Source: Halothermothrix sp. (GTDB lineage: Bacteria > Bacillota > Halanaerobiia > DY22613). Taken from it: a stretch of 64,000 nt of DNA. The stretch lies in assembly GCA_016841825.1 (NCBI GenBank), contig JAENYK010000002.1, positions 62,001 to 126,000 on the forward strand, written 5' to 3'. Position numbers and translations under genes: made by a program. This document shows positions 7,135-29,330 of the stretch, in pieces (the first letter of the stretch is position 1; each line of letters begins with the position of its first letter). A model generated the notes under the pieces. That model saw nothing but the letters and a program-made list of their open reading frames with translations, searched no databases and was not told the origin of the DNA.

Positions 7135-8165
7135 GTCCGCACCGCCAATCTTACTGTAAAAATAGATCCTTTACCTAGTTCGCTATCTACCGCAAGCGTA
7201 CCGCCCGCCCTTTGGATGGCTCTATTAGCCAGGGCAAGTCCGAGACCATTGCCTTCTTTGGCCTGCGAAGTCTCGCCTTGATAGAACTTGTCAAAAATGT
7301 GTTTCATGGTTTTATGGCTTATTCCGCAGCCAGTGTCGGCAACAGTGACGACAATCTCGTTTTCATCCGAGGTCTGCTGTAGCGTAACTTTGCCTCCTGG
7401 TTCTGTGAATTTAAGCGCGTTGGCAAGCAGGTTGTTCCATACAAGCTCCAGCAGGCTCTTGTCAGCAGTGATGACGGCCCGGTCCTCAATATCTGCTTCA
7501 AACGTGATGTTTTTCTGTTCCCACAATGTTTCAAATTGAAGGGCACAGTCGCAAAGCTGGCGGCAGAGGTCATAGGGTTCCGGGGCGGGAGCAATCTCCT
7601 GGTTGTCCAGTTTGTTTAGCTTGAGAATGTTGGTGATGAGCGAGGCAAGCTTGTTAGTGGCATCAATGACCGTATCCATATATTCTTCCCTCATCTCCGG
7701 TGGAAGCTCCTTGTTTTTAAGCACCATTGTGTAATTTTTGATAACGGAAAGAGGGGTTTTGATCTCGTGGGAGACATTAGAAACGAAATCACTATTTAAG
7801 GTTTCAATGCTTCCAAGTTCGGCCACCATTTTGTTGAAGTCATCTATATAATCGAGCTTGTCAAGTGTGTGCTCTGGCTCCACATAAACGGAAAAATCAC
7901 CATTTGCTACACGACTGGCAGCTTCGCTCAGCCGATGCAGAGGCCGATCAAATTTCCGATACTCAAGATAGCCGATGACGGCACAGAGAGCACCGGCAAT
8001 GACCGCCCAATAGATAACGTACCAGATGGTATAGACACTCCAGAGTAGAGAAATATCTGCTCCGGATAGGATACCGGGGAGTGCTGCAAAGAACATGGAA
8101 CCGACAAATAGAATAGCGTACTCCAACCAGGAGAAGTGCTTAATTCTTTTTTGCCTATTTTTCAT
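7131..8165 (-). CDS. Sensor histidine kinase (first of tandem pair)
   Basis: The 344-residue kinase shares its architecture with its downstream neighbour: two helices (about 14-35 and 44-67), HAMP-like linker, HisKA with His133 in NVSHEIKTP, and HATPase with NNLLANALKF, DTGCGIS and GNGLGLALA. Its start overlaps the response regulator stop by 4 bp. Two catalytically complete kinases behind one regulator suggest duplication, with the pair acting as alternative or heterodimeric inputs; this is inference. Confidence 0.93.
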   Translation of the reverse strand: MKNRQKRIKHFSWLEYAILFVGSMFFAALPGILSGADISLLWSVYTIWYVIYWAVIAGALCAVIGYLEYRKFDRPLHRLSEAASRVANGDFSVYVEPEHTLDKLDYIDDFNKMVAELGSIETLNSDFVSNVSHEIKTPLSVIKNYTMVLKNKELPPEMREEYMDTVIDATNKLASLITNILKLNKLDNQEIAPAPEPYDLCRQLCDCALQFETLWEQKNITFEADIEDRAVITADKSLLELVWNNLLANALKFTEPGGKVTLQQTSDENEIVVTVADTGCGISHKTMKHIFDKFYQGETSQAKEGNGLGLALANRAIQRAGGTLAVDSELGKGSIFTVRLAVRT

Positions 8166-8833
8166 AACAGTACCGCCTTATAGCCCAGACCGTGGACCGT
8201 TACGATTTTATACCCATCGCAGGCAGAGAATTTATCGCGAAGTTTCGTGATATATACGTCAACAGCACGCAGACTGGTTTCGCTATCTACCCCCCAGAAT
8301 TCGTCCATAAGCTGCGCGCGAGAAAAGGTCTTGTTCGGATAGGAAAGTAGTTTGTACAGGATGTTGAATTCTCGCACTGTTATTGAGATTTCCTCTCCAT
8401 CGATAGCGGCTGATATGGCGTCAGCATCAAGAATTAGATTGCCTAAAGACAGCTTCTTTTCGTCCATAATATGGGCACGACGCAAAAGTGCAGCCACGCG
8501 CAGTACCAACTCATTCATATCGATAGGTTTGACCATATAGTCGTCCACACCCGCCCGGAAGCCTTTCTGCTTGGAGGCAATATCGTCTCGAGCAGTCATA
8601 AACAGAATGGGAATAGTTTTATTTAGGTCACGAACTGTTTCAGCGAACTCAAAGCCGTCAATCCCTGGCATCATGATATCGGAGATGATCATATCATATT
8701 GACTGTTATACAGGAGATTATAGGCTTCACTCGGGTTGAGACAGCCTTTTGCCGCGTAACCATTGTCGTTTAAATAAGTGCAAACGATCTGATTGAGTTT
8801 CGCATCATCCTCTACTATAAGAATATTTATCAT
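8162..8833 (-). CDS. OmpR/PhoB-family response regulator
   Basis: The 223-residue regulator has a receiver domain with the acidic pair Glu8/Asp9-Asp10, phospho-acceptor Asp52 in IISDIMMPG, switch Thr in MTARDD and Lys in VKPID. A winged-helix DNA-binding domain follows (about 128-222, RAVDVYITKLRDKF ... VHGLGYKAVL). It is the first gene of a three-gene operon with two kinases, each junction being an ATGA overlap. AAGGAGGTC precedes the ATG at 8833. Confidence 0.95.
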   Translation of the reverse strand: MINILIVEDDAKLNQIVCTYLNDNGYAAKGCLNPSEAYNLLYNSQYDMIISDIMMPGIDGFEFAETVRDLNKTIPILFMTARDDIASKQKGFRAGVDDYMVKPIDMNELVLRVAALLRRAHIMDEKKLSLGNLILDADAISAAIDGEEISITVREFNILYKLLSYPNKTFSRAQLMDEFWGVDSETSLRAVDVYITKLRDKFSACDGYKIVTVHGLGYKAVLL

Positions 8834-22378: not shown

Positions 22379-22645
22379 ATGGACTATACCTATAAAGAGT
22401 TTGAACACTTACTTAAGAGAGCGAACACAGTAATAATACCTGTTGGCTCTTATGAACAGCACTCGAGCCATTTAGTTTTAAGTACGGATTCGGATATTGC
22501 TGAATACTTTGGTAATGCAGTAGGGCAAGTGCTTGATATACCTGTTTTACCTGTGCTTCCATATGGAATTAGCCATGTACATAAAAATTTTTCTGGAACC
22601 GTATATTTATCTGAAGGGACGTATTTGAATGTATTATCTATATAG
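22379..22645 (+). pseudogene. N-terminal fragment of a creatininase-family amidohydrolase
   Basis: The 88-residue ORF reads IIPVGSYEQHSSHLVLSTD, then LPYGISHVHKNFSGTVYLSEGT. This is the creatininase/MftE-family pattern, with Glu and His ligands in xEQHxxHL, Asp in STDS and GTVYLS for GTISLS. Normal members have about 240 residues and need later His and Glu ligands, which are missing; the frame stops at VLSI. It has a good ribosome binding site (AAGGAGGG). It is most likely a truncated remnant. Confidence 0.7.
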
Positions 22646-22834
22646 TTATAAAATTTGACCTTTATTTTGCTTTTTTAAATTATAACAAAGAACATCTTTT
22701 ACTTATTTTAATAGCAGGATTGTTAAAGAAAAGATAAAGATGTAAAAATAGATCATTAATAAGATCAAATTATTCGAAGTTTATATGGTTTAAAACCTTC
22801 ATAATATTTTAGTTTAATTAAAGGAGGATTTTTG

Positions 22835-23614
22835 ATGAAATTACCAATTTTACTGTTTGATCAGAATAAAAATATTACTGGGATTTATTTTTTGGTTTTT
22901 TTTCAGGCCATTCTTGTATATGGCCCCGTTGTTGTTCCATTTTATATCTCAAATGGCCTTAATTATGGACAAATTTTACAATTGCAGGCGATATTTGCTT
23001 TATCAGCTTTTTTATTTGAAATCCCATCAGGTATTTTTTCTGATTTGATTGGACGTAAAAAAACTTTAGTTATTAGTTGTTTTTTTAGTTTTCTAGGATA
23101 CTTTGTTGCGTTTGTGGGGATAGATTATTGGCATTTTATAATATTTCAATTGTTAGCAGGAATAGGAGTTAGTTTTCAATCTGGTACTTTTAGTGCTTAT
23201 ATTTATGATCATCTACTAGTAGATGGCAGAGAAAATGAGAGTAAGCAAATATTTGCGAATGTTAGCCGTATTATGTTGATAACTGGAATTATAATATCAC
23301 CTTTTGCAGGATTAATTGTAAAAATATCATCTTTAAGAACTACTCTCTTAATTACAAGTATTTCTTACAGTTTTGCTTTCTGTATCAGTTTGTTTTTTGA
23401 TGAACCTATCTCTTCTAAAACAAAAGAGGTTACGACGGTCAGATCTTATTTAACGAAGGCAAAAAATGGTTTTTTGAATATTTTTAGAGTAAAAGTCTTA
23501 AAATATATAACTTTAGAGTATCTAGGCTTTGTGATAATAATGAGTGCAATATTAGAATTTATACAACCATTTCTTATATACGGAGGATTACCTACAGAAT
23601 ATTTTGGCATATAA
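22835..23614 (+). pseudogene. Truncated MFS transporter
   Basis: 259 residues with seven hydrophobic segments. The N-terminal half is a typical MFS: GIFSDLIGRKK is motif A between TM2 and TM3, and QLLAGIGVSFQSGTFSAYIYDHL is TM4. The sequence breaks off at YFGI at 23611, where a different protein relic begins in another frame, so a deletion removed about a third of the gene. ATG 22835 follows AAAGGAGGAT; an in-frame TTG at 22832 is less likely. Confidence 0.75.
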
Positions 23615-24046: not shown

Positions 24047-24299
24047 TTCTTAACACGTATGTAGGGTGGGGAAGTTAATAAAACCATTTGATTTGAAATT
24101 AAGTAGAATTGCACCTTATATGGTGTATCAATATGTCTTATGGGTTTGAATTATGGTTTTTCACCATTGAATACCTGTGAAGTAAGGACTTTTGAAGGTA
24201 AGATAACAGAAGTCTTTTTTTGCTTTTTACGAATAAAATGGAAAGGCATTTCGTTATATAGAATGAAAGTAAGTATAAAACAAAAAGGCGGGTGGGGTT
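24047..24299. other. Spacer before the ECF operon
   Basis: There is no ORF. A weak hairpin (AAGGACTT with AAGTCTTT and a T-run, about 24185-24230) may terminate leftward-incoming transcription. I see no clear ECF-type -35 GAAC element by eye. Confidence 0.35.
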
Positions 24300-24854
24300 A
24301 TGGATGATTTGAAACTAATTAGGAGAATAACGGAAGGTGATAAAAGTGCCTTCCGGCAGCTGATGGAGAGATATCATCAACTGATCTGTTATATAGTTTG
24401 GCAGTTCCACCCGACTGCAGCCGGGATTGAAGATCTGGTACAGGAAGTGTATTTGAGAATCTATAGATCACTGCCCGGATATCGGGAGAAAGGGAGTCTG
24501 AAGAGTTGGATTGGTCGGATTACGCGAAATCTCTGTATAGATTATCTCCGGATGAGTAAATATCGGGAGAATTCCCTGGAAGAGGTGGATGTTATTGCGA
24601 CACAAGCATTGCCAGAAGATGAAATCTTGCGGACAGAGGTTAAAGAACAGGTCAGAGATGCGTTGAATCTCCTACCAGAGCATTATCGGGTGACAGTGGT
24701 TTTGAGATATTATTATGACTTCACATATCAGGAGATCAGTGAGACTTTAGATATACCCATAGGGACTGTAATGTCCAGATTAAATAAAGCGAGGCAACTT
24801 TTAAGGTCAGAGTTGGCGTTTACGGAGAGGGGGGAGATAGATGAAATGCCTTGA
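24300..24854 (+). CDS. ECF-type RNA polymerase sigma factor
   Basis: The 184-residue sigma factor has region 2 (about 20-88): YHQLICYIVWQFHP, then IEDLVQEVYLRIYRSLPGY and SWIGRITRNLCIDYLR. Region 4 (about 118-170) has LLPEHYRVTVVLRYYYDFTYQEISETLDIPIGTVMSRLNKARQLL. Regions 1.1 and 3 are absent, which defines the ECF class. It overlaps the anti-sigma gene by 14 bp, so the two are translationally coupled. GGCGGGTGGGG precedes the ATG. Confidence 0.95.
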   Translation: MDDLKLIRRITEGDKSAFRQLMERYHQLICYIVWQFHPTAAGIEDLVQEVYLRIYRSLPGYREKGSLKSWIGRITRNLCIDYLRMSKYRENSLEEVDVIATQALPEDEILRTEVKEQVRDALNLLPEHYRVTVVLRYYYDFTYQEISETLDIPIGTVMSRLNKARQLLRSELAFTERGEIDEMP

Positions 24855-25224
24855 TGTTAGAGATAAGATGATTTTATATATAAAAGATAAATTATCTGAT
24901 CCGGAGATGCGGGGTATTGAAGCTCATCTCGAGAGATGCCCTGCTTGTCGGGAGGTATTTGCGCTGGAAGAGGAGATAGCTGCTCAATTAAACGGAGATG
25001 AACTAATTTTTACGGTTTTGATGCCTGATCTCAATATGATTATGGAAGAAGACGGGAAATCTGAAGCTGAGATGGGAATTTGGGAGTGGATACTGAGCTA
25101 TCCTCTGCAAGCGTCGATTATCGCTTCGGTGTTTTTGTGTATCTCTATCTATCATAGTTTTCAGACTGGGATTATTCGGTTTGATTTGAGTAATCTATTG
25201 GGATTAATAAATCATTTATTATAA
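24841..25224 (+). CDS. Zinc-finger anti-sigma factor
   Basis: The 127-residue protein begins with a putative zinc finger: Cys3, His29, Cys33 and Cys36 (HLERCPAC), the ZAS motif that binds ECF sigma factors. A single membrane helix lies near the C-terminus (about 97-116, YPLQASIIASVFLCISIYHSF), with only ~25 residues beyond it. That short exterior leaves little room for a sensor, so the next gene product may provide the sensory part. It overlaps the sigma gene. Confidence 0.88.
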   Translation: MKCLDVRDKMILYIKDKLSDPEMRGIEAHLERCPACREVFALEEEIAAQLNGDELIFTVLMPDLNMIMEEDGKSEAEMGIWEWILSYPLQASIIASVFLCISIYHSFQTGIIRFDLSNLLGLINHLL

Positions 25225-25237
25225 GGAGGGGAGAGGG

Positions 25238-26266
25238 ATGAATTTACTAACTACCTTTGGGAATCTAATCTGGAGACCGAAAAAGGGTATCCATGAGGTT
25301 GTGGAAGCTAATGATAAGCGTTTGTCGTTGGTATTTGGTACATTGGTTTTTTATCTACATGCTTTGGTTTTTACTGTGGGGATAATATTGGGTTTTGAAC
25401 CTCAGCCAGGATGGTTTTTGAACTTATTAGCCTTTGTGTTGGCGATTCCAATTGCATATGGGTTGTTTTATGTCTTTAATTTTCTTATTAGTTGGGTCGG
25501 GGGATTTATGTTCGACGAGAGACTGGGATATCGGAAAACACTGGTCTTTTCGGGGTTGTTTTTTCTGGCCAGAGTTTTGGGAGGGTTATTCAATGAATTA
25601 CTGGAGATGAATGTGTACTTCTTGATTGGGTTACGGAGTAATATTCTATATTTCCTGGTGATACCGTTGGTTCTGATCATAGCCTTTTGGAAGATCATTT
25701 TGCCAATTATGTTGATAAAAGAGGTTTATTATACTAATCTAATGAGGGCAGTTGTGACTGTGGTGATTATTTTTATTTTGTTCGAGGCGTATATGACAAT
25801 AGTTGGCTCTTTTTATATGGGTGAGCTTAAGTCTGATGCTATAGGTATTACGGGGACAGGAGAGAAGATTGAGGATGTGTCATTGACATTTGGTAGTCCA
25901 ATTCTGCGTAATGCTTTGTGGTTTCGTTCACCAACTACCAGTGATCTGATAGGGTTCTGGGTAGGAAATAAAAAGGAGTATGCACGAATCGTGGGAATGC
26001 CGCGTCAGAGGGTGGAGATGCAAAATGGGAGATTATATCTGGATGGACAGCAGATTGAAGAGCCTTATGTGATCGAACAGGGGGAATTTGATTTGGAGTC
26101 CAATAATTTAGGCTGGAATGAATATCTACTACTGCCAGATAATCGAAGCAGTGGCGAGAGTTACGTGGTTGAGAGGGATATGATGATTGGGGTTATCCCG
26201 CCGTTTTATTATGATTTTATAGTCTGGTTGAAGAAGGTGTGGAATGGGATTTATTATAAAAATTAA
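25238..26266 (+). CDS. Yip1-like membrane protein fused to a degenerate signal-peptidase-like domain
   Basis: The 342-residue protein has a Yip1-type hydrophobic N-terminal part (residues ~1-195) with five to six helices. A soluble domain (about 225-320) follows, resembling type I signal peptidase (S26): SDLIGFWVGNKKEYARIVGMP matches the GDIVVF...YIKRVIGLP region, then NGRLYLDGQQIEEPYV matches KxYINGKxxxEPY, and EYLLLPDNRSSGES matches the VMGDNR box E. The catalytic Lys position is Ala249 (EYARIVG), and I see no MxPT Ser motif, so it should be inactive. The gene lies 13 bp after the anti-sigma gene with its own GGAGGGGAG site. It is probably the third member of a sigma regulatory unit (inference). 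Confidence 0.78.
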   Translation: MNLLTTFGNLIWRPKKGIHEVVEANDKRLSLVFGTLVFYLHALVFTVGIILGFEPQPGWFLNLLAFVLAIPIAYGLFYVFNFLISWVGGFMFDERLGYRKTLVFSGLFFLARVLGGLFNELLEMNVYFLIGLRSNILYFLVIPLVLIIAFWKIILPIMLIKEVYYTNLMRAVVTVVIIFILFEAYMTIVGSFYMGELKSDAIGITGTGEKIEDVSLTFGSPILRNALWFRSPTTSDLIGFWVGNKKEYARIVGMPRQRVEMQNGRLYLDGQQIEEPYVIEQGEFDLESNNLGWNEYLLLPDNRSSGESYVVERDMMIGVIPPFYYDFIVWLKKVWNGIYYKN

Positions 26267-26480: not shown

Positions 26481-26873
26481 TTAAATTACTATGCTTCTTT
26501 GATATGAATTGCTATTACTTAGTTTCAATCTGATTTTTATCCAGAATGAATAAATATTATCACAAGCATAGAGCGATCTTGAAGGAATTTCAAATGAGGA
26601 AAACATCTCTGGTATTGCTTCGATTTTGTCTACTACATGACCAGTAAAATATTCCCATGTTTTATCGTCTTTAAAATTTTTACTTAACGAGATATATTCC
26701 CATGGAATTCTCTGCCTGGGAATTCCATGCTTTTCTTTTAGAGACATATATTGTTTGAGGATATTTGAAACATCCTTATAAATGCTTTTCATGCTTGTTT
26801 TCATCGTCAGTCCCAAGGCCTCAATAGGTCTATTTACCATAACTATTTTAGGTAATACTTTTATCTTACTCAT
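26481..26873 (-). pseudogene. GyrI-like effector-binding protein with damaged C-terminus
   Basis: Residues 1-~100 match the stand-alone effector-binding family: KIVMVNRPIEALGLTMKTS, WEYISLSKNFKDDKTWEYF and FSSFEIPSRSLYAC. The normal end after YA (a strand with a PKSKLMWGY-like motif) is replaced by a Ser/Asn-rich tail that stops at 130 residues, probably after a frameshift. The start has AGGGAGGTTTTTGT upstream. Possibly a ligand-binding regulator partner; likely non-functional. Confidence 0.55.
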
Positions 26874-27048
26874 ACAAAAACCTCCCTGTATAATTGCGTA
26901 TTGTCAAAAGTTTTTAACAACTTTTAACCCTAAACCATTAATACTACTAACTTTTTTTATAAAAAACTTGCTCCCCCCCCTCATTTTGAGGTATTTTAAA
27001 GTTATCACCACCCAAAATCCCAAAAAAGGAGAAAAGGAGGAGCAAACC

Positions 27049-27849
27049 TTGAACAAAATAATTACCATCTTATTCTCATACATTCAACTTCAACAAAGAA
27101 TCATTGTATATCTTATTGGATCGCTGATAGGTAAGCATATCACTCGGAAAATTTACGATGAACCAATTAACAAACCCTATCGAAAACTTCAGGTTGACAA
27201 ACTACCCATCATTGAAACACTTGAAAAACTCGACTTTAAGCAACTACTCATTGATTACGAAACTACTAAAGGTAAACCACTCAAACCTGTTAAGCCACAT
27301 AAGAATAGTAATGCCCGTGTTCCCAATACCCTTACCTGCCCTAAATGTGGTGCACCCCATAATTATCTTTACGATAACACTGGAGGTCGTGGACAATTCA
27401 AGTGTAAGATCTGTGGGTGTCTATTTAACTTTAAAAACTATTACTCTAAGGCTGCTATTCTCAAATGTCCCTATTGCTCTAGACTACTCACAAAGAAGAA
27501 AGAGCGTAAAGATTTTCACATCTTCAAGTGCATCAATGATCATTGCTCACTTTATCTACACAATCTCGCTACTATGTCTAAATCTGATAAAGAGTGCTTT
27601 AAAGTAGCACCTCATGAGTTTAAAGTTCGCTATATCCATAGACAGTTTAACTTTGATTTCAAGCCTTTGAGTAAGACTAGCCCTGTAGTGTCTAACGTCG
27701 ATCTTTCCAGGATCTATGCTCCTACACATACCTTGAGCTTGATCCTTACTTATCATGTTAATTTTGGTTTGTCATTCTATACTACTTTGCAAGCAAGTAA
27801 ACTATCCAGCAGTTCACATTTGGTAGCATTAATCTGGGCATCAAGATGA
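27049..27849 (+). pseudogene. Zinc-ribbon transposase, 3' truncated
   Basis: TTG at 27049 follows AGGAGG (27034-27040). The product has a basic helical N-terminus and two zinc ribbons (CPKCGAPHNYLYDNTGGRGQ ... CKICGC and CPYCSRLL ... CINDHC), then LSLILTYHVNFGLS. In this transposase type the DDE core follows that motif. Here, after position ~27771 the sequence is the complement of another transposase's end, so the last ~26 codons to 27849 are accidental. The catalytic domain is gone. Confidence 0.75.
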
Positions 27850-28925
27850 TGGTTGATTGCGGACAAAGATATTCTAAAAAACCAATGTCTCTTACTTCTT
27901 ACTTTCGCATTTTCAACTTTGTAATCAACAAGTGTTCTCTTTAAAGAACGTTTCACAGAAGTTCGCTCTTTAAAGAGCTCTTTCCATTTATCAGACTTTC
28001 GTGGTGGTGTAGTAAAAAGTCGTAAATCCCATTGAGGTTTGGTATAAATAGATCGTCCATAAGCTGATGGAGAGCATGGCTGATCCATGGGGCATTGACT
28101 TATATCTTTGTAATAGGGACAACGCCATTTTAATCGTGATCGTTTTTTCTCAAAACCCCAATATGTCATGGGAAGTTTAGCAGGACAGATTGGGATACCA
28201 TTTTCATTAATCTCCATGGGAGCGGGATATGTTCTATTATCTAATCTACATTTATTAAGATCTATAAGTGGTTTGAGATCAAAGTGATCAAACATTGTAT
28301 AGATTGCCTGGGCATCATGGGCAGAATCAAGAGTAACATACTGAAAGTTGAACTGCGGATATAAATCGAGTAGCTCAGTAAAAGCAAAAACTGACGTACT
28401 ACTATCATGTCTAGAGCCCTGAACTAATCTAAGGTAAATGGGCAGATCATTAAGGCTATTAGAAGCAGTAATGTGATAAAGTGTGTACCCATAAAAGTAG
28501 CAATCATGATGATTGTCGTAGCCCCAATTAGCCCAACGATCAGGATAGTATCTGGGACAATTACACTTGTAAATTTTCTTATCACGGCAATCACAAGTTC
28601 TCTTACCCAAATGAGAAGCACCAGTTTCTAAAGGAGCTCCATCTCCAGCAATATTAATCTTCTGCAGGTCTCCGAGAAGACCTAGATTAGCTGAGGGGAT
28701 GACAGCAAAATTAGCAAAAATATTTTGCATAATAGACTCAGGGTGATGTGTTAATCGTCTTCCGCTAATAACTTTTTCAACAAGTTTTTCAACTATGCCA
28801 GGGTGTCGTGGAGGCAACTTCTTTCCTTTCTTAGGTTTGCGAGGCTTAAATAAGGGTTTAGAAAAATGTTCCCCTTCATCCTGGCACCAAATTCTATTAA
28901 TGAAATCATAATAATAAAAGATTCT
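27777..28925 (-). pseudogene. DDE transposase, 5' truncated
   Basis: The minus-strand frame is open from about 28925 to the stop at 27777. It begins abruptly with FYYYDFINRIWCQDEGEHFS without a start codon. It continues with NIAGDGAPLETGASHLGKR (first catalytic Asp), a cysteine-rich CDCRDKKIYKCNCPRYY, VTLDSAHDAQAIYTMFDH (second Asp) and a C-terminal CPYYKDISQCP. It resembles DDE transposases of Clostridia. The N-terminus and presumably the element ends are lost. Confidence 0.75.
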
Positions 28926-28931
28926 TGAGCG

Positions 28932-29330
28932 GTGAACGCCATTGATTATATTGAAAACAACTTAGGTGGTGAGATTTCCTATGAGGAAGCCGGTATCAGC
29001 CTTTTCCTGGCAAATGAAGTCATTTATGAAACCGTGATGAACGCAATCGCCCTGCCGGTCTTTTTTCTAAGCACGGCATTATTTCCGGCAAACTCATTCT
29101 TTGGTGGAATGGCGATTGTGATTAATCTAAATCCCTTTACTCATGTAATCAATGCTTTACGAACTTTGATTTTACAGGGGAATATCATTACCAAAGATAT
29201 TCTGTTTGGCATTCCTCTGCTTGCTCTAGTTTTGTATCAGCTTCACATGGGCGCTAAGGAGATTGAAAAAAGAAACAAGTATATAAAACCTAATCCGTCC
29301 TGCGGTAAAAAACACAGTTATGGCGGCTGA
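28932..29330 (+). pseudogene. Chimeric relic: AraC start fused to ABC-2 permease end
   Basis: The 132-codon frame starts with GTG and NAIDYIENNLGGEISYEEA, the first helices of an AraC-type HTH. After ~21 residues it switches to FLANEVIYETVMNAIALPVF, SSTALFPANS-like sequence and NPFTHVINALRTLILQGN, the C-terminal membrane part of an ABC-2 drug-exporter permease. The in-frame join of two unrelated families next to an IS graveyard points to deletion. No ribosome binding site is visible. Confidence 0.65.

Follow-up and report, generated by a model that had tools for sequence, protein, structure and literature searches.

A three-gene unit at positions 24300 to 26266 of the stretch analyzed here (64,000 nucleotides of a Halothermothrix sp. 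genome, contig JAENYK010000002.1; hereafter the window) encodes an extracytoplasmic function (ECF) sigma factor, a zf-HC2 anti-sigma factor, and a membrane protein in which a Yip1-like region is joined to a signal peptidase (S26) domain that appears to have lost its catalytic residues. Comparison of the predicted proteins establishes the trio, its dead site, and its conserved linkage, and eight further genomes from two families (termed f59, with six of the genomes, and f122, with two) carry the same unit. We hypothesize that the pseudo-peptidase is the sensory partner of an anti-sigma factor that itself lacks a sensory domain, and that export (signal-peptide) stress is the likeliest signal; this is a tentative reading, whose probability we place somewhat below even.

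Signal peptidase (SPase) is an essential antibiotic target, and the sensing of its lag by bacteria is known mainly from the AyrRABC system of Staphylococcus aureus. A pseudo-signal-peptidase wired to an ECF sigma factor would be a second, unrelated design. Because a receptor candidate, a promoter motif, and (in relatives) an output gene are defined, a reporter together with an SPase inhibitor makes the question testable. If the hypothesis is true, the final stage of protein export would have a dedicated monitor beyond the Ayr system, and inactive signal peptidases, for which few functions are known, would gain a signaling role. The ECF pair, Yip1, and inactive SPases are each of a known kind, while their combination, with a linked ABC-2 target, is new: no description of it was found in the open-licence literature. 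The original prediction, made from the window alone, held that no system of this kind had been described; this stands for the combination within that literature but not for its parts, since inactive SPases (SipA) and SPases acting on anti-sigma factors (RsiV, RsiP) were already known.

The three-gene unit and its S26 domain

The three genes lie on the forward strand. The first (24300-24854) encodes a 184-residue protein with matches to Pfam Sigma70_r2 (5e-17) and Sigma70_r4_2 (2e-15) and to TIGR02937 (1e-33), in keeping with the definition of ECF sigma factors, which have regions 2 and 4 only and about 180-200 residues. Its open reading frame (ORF) overlaps that of the second gene (24841-25224; 127 residues), whose product matches zf-HC2 (PF13490, 9e-10) and shows the class I features of this type, namely an N-terminal zinc-finger motif, a membrane helix, and a gene adjoining the sigma gene. 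Hydropathy and orthologue alignment place a single membrane helix at about residues 84-102, followed by an external tail of about 25 residues, and the tail is short in every orthologue examined. Judged from these features, the zinc-finger part would be the inhibitory domain and the anti-sigma factor has no sensory domain, which holds for the orthologues examined as well; because the tail is short in all of them, a separate sensor is likely.

The third gene (25238-26266) begins 13 bp past the anti-sigma stop and encodes a 342-residue protein that matches Peptidase_S26 (PF10502) at 4e-7, above the curated cut-off, and TIGR02227 at 3e-8, under the cut-off of that model; PF10502 is matched in all nine family members. 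Its S26 boxes are recognizable but altered, with SDLIGF in place of GDIVVF, ARIVGMP in place of KRVIGLP, and PDNR in place of GDNR. The position of the catalytic Lys is occupied by Ala249 (codon GCA, 25982-25984, forward strand), and the Lys is lost throughout the family (Ala in eight members, Gly in one), while ordinary S26 proteins taken from the phylum retain it wherever a simple motif search resolved the KR motif. Box B (SMxPTL) cannot be recognized in the window protein, which has Lys or Gly at the Ser position depending on the alignment. The f59 members read P-M-D-P-R-V, with Pro at the Ser position, and locus L081 reads G-M-S-G-E-L, with Gly; locus L080 keeps a Ser (SIDPSV), 59 residues ahead of the lost Lys, so that a Ser is recognizable in at most one of the nine. 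Across the S26 domain the family alignment contains no conserved Ser, Lys, or His column, and hence no sign of another dyad. Judged by sequence, the domain is therefore catalytically dead, and a misread ordinary SPase was rejected on the same grounds. Nor is the third protein the housekeeping signal peptidase, because an intact one is encoded elsewhere in the same genome (L282, with SGSMRPT, FIKRIIG, and GDNRNNSEDSR).

The N-terminal part of the protein (residues 1-198; 25238..25831, forward strand) is predicted to form five membrane helices. Pfam detects no Yip1 domain (PF04893) here, although it does so in all eight orthologues (best 5e-13); a general association of Yip1 with ECF genes is not seen, as not one of the best 30 Yip1 loci in the phylum has an ECF gene nearby. 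The C-terminal part (about residues 229-320; 25922..26197, forward strand) is modeled with an S26 fold and should lie outside the membrane, because the number of helices is odd and the N-terminus is basic. In a first structure model, for which the alignment included 18 true signal peptidases, the helices span residues 27-52, 59-92, 98-130, 136-164, and 168-198, the S26 part mostly reaches a predicted local distance difference test (pLDDT) score of 79-96, and the best Foldseek matches are SpsB, the Enterococcus faecalis SPase, and SipA. A second model, which guards against a circular fold match, was built from the window protein and five orthologues only, with no true signal peptidase. Its mean confidence is lower (56), and its best PDB matches are again SpsB (E 5e-6) and the E. 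faecalis SPase, with SipA further down (E 6e-3). The possibility that SPases in the alignment had produced the fold match was accordingly rejected, and the models support an S26 fold for the domain.

Most of what had been claimed for this locus from the window alone survives these comparisons. The three-gene ECF unit is confirmed by ORFs and Pfam, the anti-sigma factor indeed has almost no external domain, and the third protein has recognizable S26 boxes, an Ala at the catalytic Lys position (a loss that recurs in eight other genomes), and no visible Ser motif. A structure unlike S26 peptidases and a Ser/Lys dyad elsewhere in the fold had both been named as grounds for abandoning the idea; SpsB is the best structural match with or without SPases in the alignment, and a dyad was looked for and none was seen. 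The Yip1-like region stands by way of the orthologues, in the window protein itself escaping Pfam.

Signal peptidases are also known to act on anti-sigma factors directly. RsiV and RsiP are cleaved by active signal peptidase, which serves as their site-1 protease, and in the sigma-P system a third protein, PbpP, is a separate sensor that controls the RsiP step (PMC4183432, PMC6066255, PMC8844934). The sigma-V/RsiV and sigma-P/RsiP/PbpP systems resemble the window unit in pairing an ECF sigma factor with a membrane anti-sigma factor under control that involves a signal-peptidase fold; they differ in that an active SPase cleaves the anti-sigma factor, whereas the window operon itself encodes a dead S26 protein. 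By analogy, the pseudo-peptidase may be an adaptor of proteolysis that shields the anti-sigma helix or tail from the genuine signal peptidase, or offers it to that enzyme, in a similar site-1 step. The presence of L282 would supply the enzyme, and an AHA site follows the helix in one relative's anti-sigma factor; but the orthologue alignment reveals no conserved AxA or other signal-peptidase cleavage site in the anti-sigma tails, and a large external sensory domain of the RsiV type is absent. We regard this alternative as improbable.

Distribution, predicted promoter and regulon

No full-length relative of the third protein was found in 60 related genomes including those of the class, which yielded ordinary signal peptidases only. 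The first relative emerged from a phylum-wide search as a weak match to the N-terminal part (E = 0.006, L042), at a locus with the same order as the window: an ECF sigma gene, a zf-HC2 gene, and a 385-residue Yip1 plus S26 gene. The class of L042 accounts for all eight additional trio genomes. In a search of 399 genomes of the phylum, a profile of nine sequences (A2) picks out nine full-length orthologues at E 1e-93 or better, whereas ordinary signal peptidases reach no better than E 1e-22 and match in the C-terminal part only. The trio is thus rare (9/399), and the Yip1 plus pseudo-S26 architecture is patchy in its distribution. Its order is kept in every one of the nine genomes that hold the third gene, and Yip1, S26, and the loss of the Lys are common to all eight relatives. 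Chance gene order was rejected, as trio and Lys loss recur in two other, distant families, and the linkage to the sigma pair on which the original prediction depended is conserved in all nine genomes. A second phylum search returned the same set of matches, and a scan of genome contigs the same relatives only; a plasmid search gave one ordinary lepB, viral contigs held no relative of the full protein, and PHROGs gave no match.

A tree of S26 domains separates the pseudo-peptidases, two paralogues among them, from 23 ordinary members by a branch with moderate support (85/84). For the sigma factors, monophyly is neither established nor excluded (approximately unbiased test, p = 0.275). The two paralogues (L082:5478-6905, minus strand, 475 residues; L083:6227-7822, plus strand, 531 residues) also lack the catalytic Lys (QVVACPGE) and carry a long Ser/Gly/Asp-rich insert inside the S26 domain. 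Another ECF gene (7787-8311), with a zinc-finger frame after it, is oriented divergently to the L082 copy.

The f59 unit sits between clpC and radA, the f122 unit beside clpC in the opposite orientation, and the window unit elsewhere. In both families (L074-L081) the unit adjoins ctsR-mcsA-mcsB-clpC, and in f59 it is inserted before radA-disA; this neighborhood possibly indicates a link to protein quality control, or may merely be a conserved locus.

Ahead of the sigma gene, 9/9 loci have a predicted ECF-type promoter, YGAATA-N15/16-CGTY, one of them in a variant form: the sites consist of TGAATA or CGAATA (TGAAGA in L079), 15 or 16 bases, and CGTC. In the window the predicted autoregulatory promoter is CGAATA-N16-CGTTATAT (24230..24259, forward strand), its core motif 45 bp from the sigma start, where shuffling gives a chance expectation of 0.65 such sites per whole 64 kb on both strands. 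No other CGAATA-type site in the 5.1 Mb genome is both intergenic and well placed before a gene; the other matches examined there lie within genes or off plausible promoter positions, and CGAATA-N-CGTY is not commoner than a reversed control (17 vs 34). For the window's genome, autoregulation alone is predicted. In the f59 leaders (L074-L079) a second conserved block, GGCGAACC, lies upstream of the predicted sigma promoter, with a further block, TTCATnCTTTnnGGTnACAGGGATC, higher up.

A strict form of the motif, GAATA-N15/16-CGTCTAA, was searched in nine genomes. The six f59 genomes contain ten matches: four precede the trio, and the other six stand about 70-480 bp before an operon, the same one each time, that encodes an ABC-2 ATPase and permease. 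In the f122 genome G372 the strict motif lies 104 bp ahead of the orthologous operon, and in G328 TGAATA-N16-CGTC stands just ahead of its copy (L255). As a control, seven genomes from a sister genus in f59 were taken that have the ABC-2 operon and in which no trio was found; five have a readable upstream region. The motif precedes the operon in 8/8 trio genomes and in 0/5 of these (Fisher p = 8e-4, an optimistic value since the genomes are related, though f59 and f122 are separate lineages). Prediction and comparison together support autoregulation of the unit and, in the relatives, the ABC-2 operon as a target of the sigma factor. A paralogous Yip1 plus pseudo-S26 gene without the Lys lies near the ABC-2 operon in G430 (in G234, incompletely matched). 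Beside the operon in G372 there is also a second ECF sigma/anti-sigma pair followed by two membrane proteins (L239:4370-7393, minus strand), one of which resembles LiaF-type envelope-stress proteins.

The third place in an autoregulated operon would also suit an output gene, and the third protein may then stand outside signaling altogether, as a co-expressed product such as an assembly or export factor. A precedent is SipA of Streptococcus pyogenes, an inactive SPase homologue in which Ser is replaced by Asp48 and Lys by Gly85 while the peptide cleft is kept, and which has a non-enzymatic role in pilus assembly (PMC4049620). Like SipA, which is among the structural matches of both models, the window domain has an S26 fold without a Ser-Lys dyad and would work without catalysis; SipA, however, serves pilus polymerization, whereas the window domain is joined to Yip1-like helices and its gene is linked to those of an ECF sigma/anti-sigma pair. 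In each of the nine genomes the third gene comes directly after the anti-sigma gene; neither a pilus nor a sortase gene was noticed in the vicinity, and the anti-sigma factor has no sensory domain. We consider a co-expressed product very improbable.

The proposed sensory role

Since the anti-sigma factor has no sensory domain and the third protein is its only conserved neighbor, the simplest reading makes the third protein a sensor or a co-inhibitor; other sigma systems, too, have a sensor that is a protein by itself. We hypothesize that the sigma factor is held by the anti-sigma factor, beside which the third protein would sit in the membrane by its Yip1-like helices, with the dead S26 domain exposed outside; contact between the two proteins is what we infer from this arrangement. 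With too little signal-peptidase activity, or with export blocked, uncleaved preproteins or signal peptides would pile up and be detected by the S26 domain or its membrane part. The resulting change in the third protein would loosen the anti-sigma factor and free the sigma factor. The freed factor would then activate the operon that encodes it, along with the ABC-2 exporter in the orthologous systems, where the exporter would relieve the membrane.

CnrYXH offers a parallel for the separate sensor: the sigma factor CnrH is controlled by a short anti-sigma factor, CnrY, and a membrane-anchored sensor, CnrX, encoded alongside. CnrX, however, senses metals in the periplasm, and CnrY belongs to class II and has no zinc finger.

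Export stress as the signal is the speculative part of this proposal. A fold that evolved to hold signal peptides suggests itself as suited to detecting uncleaved ones, and the proposed role of the domain, binding signal peptides or mis-secreted proteins and signaling this to the anti-sigma factor, draws indirect support from the predicted ABC-2 regulon of the relatives, as in AyrRABC. In that system preproteins with stable signal peptides accumulate, the polytopic protein AyrA relays the signal, and an ABC-2 transporter bypasses SPase (PMC5727409, PMC5013292). A polytopic membrane protein signaling to a transcription regulator (in the window, as proposed) and an output of ABC-2 ATPase and permease (predicted, in relatives only) are common to both; but AyrR is a Cro/CI-type repressor and AyrA a DUF3169 protein without S26, whereas Pfam finds S26, zf-HC2, and sigma domains in the window trio, and the parallel would be functional only. 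The fullest version of the hypothesis, in which the dead domain takes uncleaved signal peptides as its ligand and so measures directly how much signal-peptidase capacity is left, controls the ECF sigma factor through the sensor-less anti-sigma factor, and induces the ABC-2 exporter as a relief valve, is unlikely to hold in every part.

Several observations weigh against the hypothesis. Residues of about 194-225 fall below pLDDT 50 in both models. Box B would be expected here, together with those strands of the peptide cleft that lie toward the membrane; because the stretch is unmodeled, the cleft, and hence signal-peptide binding, is not established. The window sigma factor is not placed as sister of the orthologous sigma factors in the tree. 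In the window's genome the ABC-2 permease has no match, so that the ABC-2 target is known from relatives only, and the strict motif occurs at no promoter. Finally, the best NCBIfam families of the ABC-2 ATPase are DrrA (1e-66) and the lantibiotic-protection ATPases (6e-62), both below cut-offs; these drug and lantibiotic exporters would fit a drug sensor equally well.

The main rival takes up this last point: the Yip1-like part would detect membrane-active compounds or lipid perturbation, the dead S26 domain would be a scaffold, and the exporter would expel an antimicrobial. ECF systems commonly respond to envelope drugs, and the lack of a modeled S26 cleft at residues 194-225 is in keeping with a scaffold. 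Such a sensor would leave unexplained, however, why an S26 domain without catalytic residues is kept in three families and a paralogue, and a match to DrrA-type ATPases is a broad default among ABC-2 systems. We hold this rival to be a real possibility, if not a probable one, and retain export sensing by the pseudo-peptidase as the favored hypothesis.

Surroundings of the unit in the window

The guanine-plus-cytosine content of the three-gene unit is 40.5%, compared with about 32% in its flanks, and horizontal acquisition of the unit would fit this difference. On the 5' side lie a short creatininase-like frame (22379-22645) and a frame for an MFS transporter (22832-23614), both seemingly truncated. 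On the 3' side, transposase-like frames at about 26782-28817 adjoin a frame (28932-29330) in which the beginning of an AraC-type regulator apparently runs into the final part of an ABC-2 permease; together these look like the debris of an insertion event.
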